A stretch of 64,000 nucleotides of DNA from Candidatus Harpocratesius repetitus (lineage in GTDB: Archaea; Asgardarchaeota; Lokiarchaeia; Sigyniarchaeales; Promethearchaeaceae), in the NCBI GenBank assembly GCA_021498095.1, contig JAIZWK010000001.1, positions 1,723,666 through 1,787,665 of the forward strand, in the 5' to 3' direction. The position numbers were made by a program, and so were the translations under genes. A model generated the notes under the pieces. That model was not told the origin of the DNA, searched no databases, and saw only the letters and a list, made by a program, of their open reading frames with translations. Shown here one piece after another: positions 28,258 through 32,450 of the stretch. Each line of letters begins with the position of its first letter. Positions within the stretch are counted from its first letter, which is position 1.

Positions 28258-28950
28258 TCATTTATTAAGAGTTTTATACGAATAAACAATCCGTTGAATT
28301 AGTGTCCATGTGCATAGTGCACTAAAGATTAAAAATAGAGCAGGAAACACCCAACGTATCTTGTGTTCACCCAAAATTTTTTCTTCTAGCGCAAACACTG
28401 CCCATTCGATAATATAAATAAATATTAAAATGAAAAATCTTTCAGCTCGTTCCATAAAACCTATTCCTTTCATGGAAATACCTTCAATTTCAGCTCTCGA
28501 ACGGGTATATGAAATCATTAGCATTACTGTTAAAGTAAAAATACCAATTAAATAGTTAATTGTCGAATTCCAAGGCCAGATTATACCTCCAAACATTAAC
28601 CCCATCATTGAAACTGCATCTGCAATCCTATCTAGTGTACTGTCTAAAAAAGCGCCGTACTTTGAAACCTTTCCAGATTTTCGTGCTACGGAACCATCCA
28701 ATACGTCAATGTATCCTGATAAAAAGAATAGCCAAGGAGGAACACACGCCCACCACCACCAAATATTGGGAGTGATATAAGAATAATTATATAAAAATAC
28801 AGAAGGAAAAGCAAATGCCACGCCTGCCAGAACTGAAAGAGCAAATCCGAATAAACTCAACTGGTTGGGGGTTATGTGATGCTTAATACACCATCGACTG
28901 GGGCCATCAACAAATTTTGGAAGTAGATAGCGATAATTATTTAAAACCAT
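28258..28950 (-). CDS. CDP-alcohol phosphatidyltransferase family protein
   Basis: DVLDGSVARKSGKVSKYGAFLDSTLDRIADA matches DGx2ARx8Gx3Dx3D. Confidence 0.93.
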   Translation of the reverse strand: MVLNNYRYLLPKFVDGPSRWCIKHHITPNQLSLFGFALSVLAGVAFAFPSVFLYNYSYITPNIWWWWACVPPWLFFLSGYIDVLDGSVARKSGKVSKYGAFLDSTLDRIADAVSMMGLMFGGIIWPWNSTINYLIGIFTLTVMLMISYTRSRAEIEGISMKGIGFMERAERFFILIFIYIIEWAVFALEEKILGEHKIRWVFPALFLIFSALCTWTLIQRIVYSYKTLNK

Positions 28951-29091: not shown

Positions 29092-29417
29092 GGCATGATC
29101 TGTATCCGTTTTATAACCTTTGCGATCATTGTTAGGAAAAACCTAGTGCTCTCGCAACCTCTTCTCTAAAAACGGAAAATATGATTCATGCGGGCCAATA
29201 TTTCTTGTTGCGGAGTAGGGTTGCTGACGATCTCATCATTGCAAGCTCACGGCTGCCTCAGAGATGAGCCTAATTTCCGACTTAAAGAAATATTAACTCG
29301 GGGTTGTTGTCAGGATGCTTATGCTCGAAAATTTCATTCGGAGACTTGATACAGTCAATTAACCGTCTATCTCGTCCTCGGTATCACATGACAAAAAAAC
29401 GACCCGTCATTGTTCCC
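29092..29417. ncRNA. Candidate structured non-coding RNA (class not identified, strand uncertain)
   Basis: No long ORF and locally GC-rich. Nested complementary arms: CCGTTTT 29106-29112/AAAACGG 29169-29175 enclosing TGCGA 29121-29125/TCGCA 29152-29156; AATATTTCTT 29197-29206/AAGAAATATT 29285-29294 (10/10) enclosing CTCATC 29232-29237/GATGAG 29263-29268; hairpin GACT-TGATAC-AGTC 29343-29356. TATA-like ATATATAATTTTAT (minus) about 26 nt upstream of 29417. Confidence 0.5.
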
Positions 29418-29646
29418 TAAATTTATTAAAAGAATAAAATTATATATTCCTTCTTATGATAATTTTTTACTGATCAAAGTTGATCAACCACTATCATTGG
29501 TGGTTATTACAATAATAGATTGAGAGTTTATAAAGTTTTGGAAAAAAATTGAAGAGATCTCGCCTAAAATATGCCTAAAATCCACTGATTTGGCAATTTC
29601 AAAGAATTGGATTGTAAAAAAAAATTAAAATCTCGGAAATATTATG

Positions 29647-29839: not shown

Positions 29840-30339
29840 TAGATTATTGATTATCGATACATCAAAAATTCTGCAAACATATTCTAAAAACGGAAATCCG
29901 AATCTTGTGAGCCGATCCTTATTGGCGATCAGCACCTGTGCCACCTTTCTCTGCACAATTTGCTACATCAGCCGCCACAACCCTCTGCGCATCGGATTCA
30001 AGCCTGAACCGTATTCTTTAATAATTTTTGCAGGTGATTCCTCAGTAAAATGCTCTTTGTGATATTTTTTCAAGCGTTCAACTTGTCTGTCAAGATTTCC
30101 ATCCTTTTCTGTTTGGCAGATGAGACTCTGGCATAAACATAGGTCGATTTTACCGTTTCCTCCGCTTGTTGGCATGGAAGATTAACCGATTCGGGCAGAA
30201 AATCCGCCAACTGTTCCTATAAGTATCGGCGGTGATTTCCAAATGTCCTTTTAGGAACGAGGTATCCTTTTTTATCCCATCTGCGTAGAGTTGCGGGAGT
30301 AACTCCAAGAAGGCATGAAGTTTCGGAGATAGTTAGTAT
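29840..30339 (-). pseudogene. Decayed IS607-type serine resolvase (TnpA)
   Basis: Minus-strand fragments: HTH LTISETSCLLGVTPATLRRWDKKGYLVPKRTFGNHRRYL(stop); YVYARVSSAKQK / (frameshift) DGNLDRQVERLKKYHKEHF...GSGLNPMRRGLWRLM(stop)QIVQRKVAQVLIANKDRLTRFGFPFLEYVCRIFDVSIIN. Confidence 0.88.
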
Positions 30340-30523
30340 AGAATTAAATTTGGGGAAGATCTATATAAATTAAGCGATCAATGATCAAGTTTGATCAAAA
30401 ATTTTTTTGCTGTTGATAAGTTTCATTATAGTTAATATGTTGATCTAAATGATATCGTGATATTATTTGGATATCTCCTAAATATTAACCGAATCTAAAT
30501 CAATCAATATTTTTTGGTTTTAT

Positions 30524-32009: not shown

Positions 32010-32450
32010 TTAAGATTTTTGGAGATCTGATTTGTAAGATTTTGAATTAAAACTTTTAGGTTTGGGATTTTTATTTTTGAACGCTTTAGGATTTCCTTTT
32101 GGATTTGCAGTTAACCTTAATTTCGGATTTTTTGGATTTGATTTAGAATGAAACTTTGCTTTTTTAATTTTAGTTCTCCGTGACTTTTGAGCAGAAGAGA
32201 GTGTGAATAAAGCAGATCCTTTTTTAATATTGTATTTTTTAAAAATTTCTGCATCTGAATGAAATGGTTTGACCGAAACAAATGGTTTATTCACAGGACC
32301 AAAAATATCTGTGATGATACCTATTTTTTGCTTTTCTGAAGAATATACTTTTTCTCCAATATCAGGTAGCTTTTTATCAAAAGCTCCTTCAATACTTCGC
32401 AAAATGATATGATTTGAATGAGCAATGCCGATAATTTTCCCAATGTTCAC
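32010..32450 (-). CDS. gar1: H/ACA RNP protein Gar1-like
   Basis: GKIIGIAHSNHIILRS...PDIGEKVYSSEKQKIGIITDIFGPVNKPFVSVKP; basic tail; adjacent to tfb. Confidence 0.88.
   Translation of the reverse strand: MNIGKIIGIAHSNHIILRSIEGAFDKKLPDIGEKVYSSEKQKIGIITDIFGPVNKPFVSVKPFHSDAEIFKKYNIKKGSALFTLSSAQKSRRTKIKKAKFHSKSNPKNPKLRLTANPKGNPKAFKNKNPKPKSFNSKSYKSDLQKS

Follow-up and report, generated by a model that had tools for sequence, protein, structure and literature searches.

A conserved RNA is encoded on the minus strand of the stretch of DNA analysed here (64,000 nt, hereafter the window), and we put at about 88 per cent the probability that it is a three-unit archaeal box H/ACA guide RNA, transcribed from its own TATA promoter and predicted to direct pseudouridylation of 23S rRNA. 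Its architecture, kink-turns and ANA boxes are those of archaeal H/ACA RNAs, and the characteristic distances agree approximately for units 1 and 3. The features of the locus are as follows.

29092–29418, minus strand: whole RNA, about 327 nt, conserved in 10/10 family genomes and in 20 or more from other families
29439–29446, minus strand: putative TATA box TATATAAT, 22–29 nt upstream of the GGGA start
29415–29418, minus strand: 5′ strand (AGGG) of the closing helix P0, pairing with 29192–29194 (CCC)
29305–29394, minus strand: predicted H/ACA unit 1, from covariation, descriptor and ACA in 18/18 other-family genomes; P1 29389–29394/29307–29312; P2 29369–29373/29328–29332; s1 29374–29388 (..CCGAGGAC); s2 29313–29327 (CGAGCAUAA..); kink-turn GA..AAUGA (29334–29338); ACA at 29308–29310 and 29305–29307
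29206–29279, minus strand: predicted H/ACA unit 2, from covariation, descriptor and ANA in 18/18 other-family genomes; P1 29276–29279/29211–29214; P2 AUCUC/GAGAU 29261–29265/29230–29234; s1 29266–29275; s2 29215–29229 (..GUCAGCAACCC..); kink-turn GA 29258–29259, NNU-GA 29236–29240; ACA 29206–29208
29101–29176, minus strand: predicted H/ACA unit 3, from covariation, descriptor and ANA in 17/18 other-family genomes; P1 29169–29176/29105–29112; P2 UUGCGA/UCGCAA 29152–29157/29120–29125; s1 29158–29168 (UAGAGAAGAGG); s2 29113–29119 (AGGUUAU); kink-turn GA 29150–29151, NNU-GA 29126–29130; ACA 29101–29103
29197–29294, minus strand: outer helix around unit 2, 29285–29294 with 29197–29206
29093–29191, minus strand: outer helix around unit 3, GCAUGAAUCAU (29181–29191) with GAUCAUGC (29093–29100)
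28258–28950, minus strand: CDP-alcohol phosphatidyltransferase (Pfam PF01066), downstream of and outside the RNA
32013–32450, minus strand: homologue of GAR1, a core H/ACA RNP protein (Pfam PF04410, E 6.8e-12)

The candidate noncoding RNA at 29092–29418 is real, and its functional strand is the minus strand. Its folding energy is unexceptional (z −1.45 for the plus strand and −1.40 for the minus strand), so the case for it rests on comparison with relatives, that is, on conservation and covariation. A sequence-only reading of the window had proposed a highly structured, GC-rich RNA at 29092–29417, in an interval with no long open reading frame, and had suggested looking for conservation and covariation in related genomes; both were found when this was done, which bears out the proposal, and we agree on the lack of a long reading frame. 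The interval is rich in G+C relative to its flanks (∼42 per cent against ∼28–35 per cent), not in absolute terms. Every inverted arm listed in that reading is present, and three of them belong to the conserved structure: CCGTTTT/AAAACGG and TGCGA/TCGCA are the lower and upper stems of unit 3, and the 10-bp arm AATATTTCTT/AAGAAATATT is the outer helix around unit 2. The remaining two are not conserved. One, CTCATC/GATGAG, competes with AUCUC/GAGAU, the upper stem that is conserved in unit 2; the other, the GACT-TGATAC-AGTC hairpin, falls in a part of unit 1 that varies, its apical loop.

The RNA is conserved across one order of Asgard archaea. It is a single-copy element in the source genome and is present in all ten genomes examined of the source genome's family (the family): copies in genera g1, g4 and g5 were detected by DNA search, diverged copies in g3 (genome G003) and g2 (G002) by R2, a covariance model covering the 3′ third of the RNA, and the copy in G006 was located from its syntenic place. 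A model of the middle domain (R1) missed diverged homologues that were detected by R2 and by R3, a second covariance model of the 3′ unit built on the ten family sequences. With R3 the RNA was found in 18 of 32 genomes from other families at E < 0.001 (best 1.7e-10) and in two further ones at E 0.001–0.005, and it could be read at full length in all 20. This other-family count is at least 20, given that the best 120 candidates per genome were scored, so the RNA cannot be taken to be absent where R3 gave no match. No match was found in the plasmids searched. In genome G021 the 3′-unit model gave a second, weak match (contig C17, 42374–42497, minus strand, E 0.02), which lies ∼470 nt beyond the RNA on its downstream side and may be a further H/ACA RNA in tandem.

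As judged from conservation, the putative 5′ end of the transcript lies at an invariant GGGA near 29417 and the putative 3′ end at GCAUGCC near 29092; nearly every copy begins with the conserved GGGA, and a few with GGGG. The minus-strand TATA-like element noted in the sequence-only reading upstream of 29417 is present and recurs at near-constant spacing in relatives, with a weaker A-rich variant in genus g3, and a T-rich stretch follows several copies of the RNA. Transcription from the plus strand was considered and rejected, since the plus-strand consensus fold contains 13 pairs with double changes against 22 for the minus strand, and the kink-turn/ANA descriptor described below is at background there. 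By this comparative pattern the RNA is predicted to be transcribed from the minus strand, with a putative TATA promoter of its own.

The three units share one plan, in which a lower stem, an internal pocket and an upper stem are followed by a kink-turn (5′ GA; 3′ NNU-GA), an apical hairpin and an ANA box. When a hand-drawn structure of 60 pairs was laid over an alignment of 18 other-family sequences, 89 per cent of cells were paired and 38 of the 60 pairs carried double changes, compared with 19.4 ± 2.4 after shuffling and 13–17 in slid controls. The stems of all three units covary in two independent alignments. The units are held in an outer scaffold: P0 brings units 1 and 2 together, while units 2 and 3, with their boxes, each lie inside an outer helix of their own, and all of these helices covary. 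In the other families the equivalent of P0 is 91 per cent paired with three doubly changed pairs, that of the outer helix around unit 2 is 96 per cent paired, and that of the outer helix around unit 3 has five pairs with double changes.

A descriptor applied automatically (P2 with a minimum of 4 bp, GA, C-stem, NNUGA, P1 plus ANA) found three of three units in the window RNA and did so in none of 200 shuffles, and no other such triple cluster occurs on either strand of the 64-kb window. Across the ten family RNAs it identified 17 kink-turn modules where ∼2.9 would be expected, with the antisense strand at background; in its strict form it found none in G002 and G006, where variant kink-turns were recognised by eye only. 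The UGA strand of the kink-turn is kept in nearly all other-family genomes. The boxes are similarly persistent: in the other families unit 1 carries ACA in 18/18 genomes, unit 2 ACA or AUA in 18/18 and unit 3 ACA or AAA in 17/18, and in the family a hand reading found the boxes of units 1 and 2 in 10/10 genomes, A112 and A114 of the unit 1 box being invariant in the alignment. The unit 3 box in the family is ACA, AUA or AAA in g1, g2 and G003; g4 and g5 have UCA in place of a canonical ANA box, and in G006 it is absent.

Archaeal H/ACA sRNAs are built from one to three units, joined through single-stranded ANA; in each, a K-turn or K-loop sits 5–6 nt above the pocket, and 14–16 nt separate the target from the box (PMC3726423, PMC3608112, PMC7991803). 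Here P2 is mostly 4–8 bp in units 1 and 3. From the guide start to ACA, unit 1 measures ∼14 nt in other families and 14 or 17 nt in the window, and unit 3 measures 14–16 nt to its box. The corresponding distance in unit 2 is 17–18 nt with an ambiguous pocket boundary, and its upper stem lies 19–24 nt from the ANA box, which exceeds the usual ruler. Cbf5 was detected above cut-off in nine of the ten family genomes, the source genome included, and the GAR1 gene lies 2.6 kb from the RNA.

Targets were sought by scanning homologous 23S and 16S positions in four family genomes for pairing of the 3′ guide, an unpaired U-N and the 5′ guide, with permuted guide columns as the null and ruler ranges of 13–16 and 13–18 nt; the choice of range does not alter the top site of unit 1 or of unit 3. 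These permutations replaced the base-relabelling null of an earlier, cruder scan that yielded no significance, because relabelling alters composition. For unit 1 the top site is LSU U2616 (CUUGC-UU-CCUCGAUG) in 4/4 family genomes and 0/400 permutations, and unit 1 guides from other families, scanned with the source genome rRNA as a proxy, independently pick U2616 as well (17/17; 0/200 permutations), with the 3′ guide pairing over only 3–4 bp. For unit 3 the top site is LSU U2047 in helix 69 (UAUAAC-UC-UCUUAAGG), again in 4/4 family genomes and 0/400 permutations; in other families U2047 ranks fourth and is outscored by LSU 2264, so this assignment is weaker than that of unit 1. The most likely target predicted for unit 1 is thus U2616 in the peptidyl-transferase centre, and the most likely target predicted for unit 3 in the family is, less firmly, U2047 at helix 69.

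By local sequence we take U2616 to be E. coli 2496, in the peptidyl-transferase centre, and U2047 to be E. coli 1921. The source 23S reads GCUUCCUCGAUG at the peptidyl-transferase centre, with UU at ∼2616–2617 where E. coli has CA. Yeast equivalents were assigned by local sequence and numbering offsets. Offsets of 369 and 343, derived from modifications shared with E. coli (PMC8307265), map U2616 and U2047 to yeast 25S Ψ2865 and Ψ2264, which are guided by snR46 and snR3, respectively (PMC8307265).

For unit 2 no site reached significance in the family (P 0.14), and its best targets disagree between families. Two candidates were rejected: an A-loop target (GGGCUGUUCGCCC), which fits only G003, and LSU 2748, the top site in other families, which tops that set only. 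The A-loop of 23S (2668–2680) reads GGGCUGUACGCCC in the source genome and GGGCUGUUCGCCC in G003. The source genome has two copies of 23S (802841–805945 and 2300729–2303834) and two of 16S (724577–726072 and 2304121–2305614), one 16S/23S pair being adjacent and the other ∼77 kb apart.

The genomic setting of the RNA bears on what else it might be. In genera g1, g4 and g5 it shares the strand of the phosphatidyltransferase and precedes the start of that gene by 78–154 nt, as would suit a riboswitch or 5′ leader acting on a phosphatidyltransferase–eS26 operon downstream of it. The phosphatidyltransferase adjoins the RNA only in those genera, however. In g2, g3 and the other families a gene for a TrmY-like SPOUT methyltransferase sits directly upstream of the phosphatidyltransferase (in g1, g4 and g5 this gene is missing there and the RNA takes its place), the RNA of g2 and g3 lies beyond it on the strand opposite to the phosphatidyltransferase, and in other families it is 1–34 kb away on the opposite strand. 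With its own TATA box, and a T-rich 3′ flank in several genomes, the RNA is very unlikely to be such a leader, a candidate that we rejected because synteny breaks. Nor is it tied to a mobile element, one of the suggestions of the sequence-only reading: it is single-copy, and its neighbourhood is kept within the family. A degenerate resolvase- or transposase-like remnant of short broken open reading frames adjoins the RNA (window 29960–30400, minus strand); the one of these frames that was checked has no Pfam match. Length (∼300 nt), an L7Ae-type kink-turn and housekeeping-like conservation might also recall an RNase P, RNase MRP or SRP RNA that has diverged, yet the same genome has an RNase P RNA at 709938–710219 (E 1.5e-15, 58.5 bits) and an SRP RNA at 720759–721076 (E 2.1e-16, 73.9 bits), each found with Rfam models. 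The RNA at the locus is not RNase P or SRP RNA, and the probability of any such identity is negligible. Since both of the RNAs found elsewhere score under the gathering cut-offs of Rfam, they would escape standard annotation. Rfam had no hit anywhere in the window, and at the locus itself and in three diverse homologues gathering and permissive scans returned chance-level hits only and no Rfam family match, in keeping with the earlier failure to match SRP or RNase P motifs.

The same permissive scans of four diverse members did return weak, sub-threshold matches to C/D snoRNAs, and together with the three kink-turns these could hint at a box C/D cluster or at an unknown L7Ae RNP. Since box C/D pairs do not occur in the right arrangement and every unit has a lower stem, a pocket and an ANA box instead, this is exceedingly improbable. 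A closer alternative is an H/ACA-derived RNA that serves rRNA folding or processing in the manner of snR30/U17, binding Cbf5 and L7Ae without converting a uridine. On this view the units would dock on functional centres of 23S rRNA. In its favour, the ANA boxes lie inside outer helices, unit 2 departs from the usual ruler, conservation of the pockets is very strong and the guides form short duplexes. Against it, the ruler is roughly observed in units 1 and 3 (13–17 nt), and the U-N that these units leave corresponds in position to yeast pseudouridines 2865 and 2264; we regard this alternative as unlikely. An H/ACA pseudouridylation guide remains the preferred reading. The sequence-only reading had offered a divergent housekeeping RNA, a guide-type RNA or a new class; the first two were each half right, in that the RNA is a conserved, order-wide guide of the H/ACA kind, and its class is not wholly new.

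As an H/ACA guide, the RNA would bind L7Ae at the kink-turn of each unit, while the unit's lower stem, its pocket and its ANA box would carry Cbf5–Nop10–Gar1. Each unit would then hold a 23S uridine unpaired in its pocket, where it would be isomerised to pseudouridine. This mechanism is extended here from the H/ACA family by analogy. A more tentative proposal, which we hold to be possible though somewhat doubtful, is that the RNA forms a fixed three-headed H/ACA RNP of Lokiarchaeales, whose units jointly act on large-subunit centres and place pseudouridines at positions shared with eukaryotes.

In the literature searched, no H/ACA guide RNA had been reported from Asgard archaea. No Rfam model detects this one, and the alignments obtained here can seed a model with which to annotate the order. 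The RNA also offers a specific prediction of guide and target for the archaeal lineage that is closest to eukaryotes, the best-supported target (U2616) lying in the peptidyl-transferase centre. If the prediction is true, the modifications at E. coli 2496 and 1921 and at yeast 2865 and 2264 would be common to Asgard archaea and eukaryotes, and a match of sites would bear on the share of eukaryotic rRNA pseudouridylation that was inherited from archaea. Cultured relatives exist, and the prediction is therefore directly testable.

Compared with known systems, the RNA has the same P1, pocket, P2, apical K-turn or K-loop and ANA boxes as archaeal two- and three-unit H/ACA sRNAs (PMC3726423, PMC3608112, PMC7991803), and the same rRNA-complementary guide strands around an unpaired U-N. 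It differs in size and enclosure: ∼325 nt against the mostly single hairpins of 65–75 nt in archaeal H/ACA RNAs, with outer helices and a P0 scaffold, so that it is larger and more enclosed than the textbook form; the RNA has no Rfam match. With snR30/U17 (PMC7991803) it has the H/ACA architecture in common, and possibly docking on rRNA without modification. The likeness claimed to yeast snR46 and snR3 is one of target position, the predicted targets of the window RNA lying at equivalent positions of the rRNA (PMC8307265); guides of eukaryotes consist of two hairpins and lack a kink-turn.
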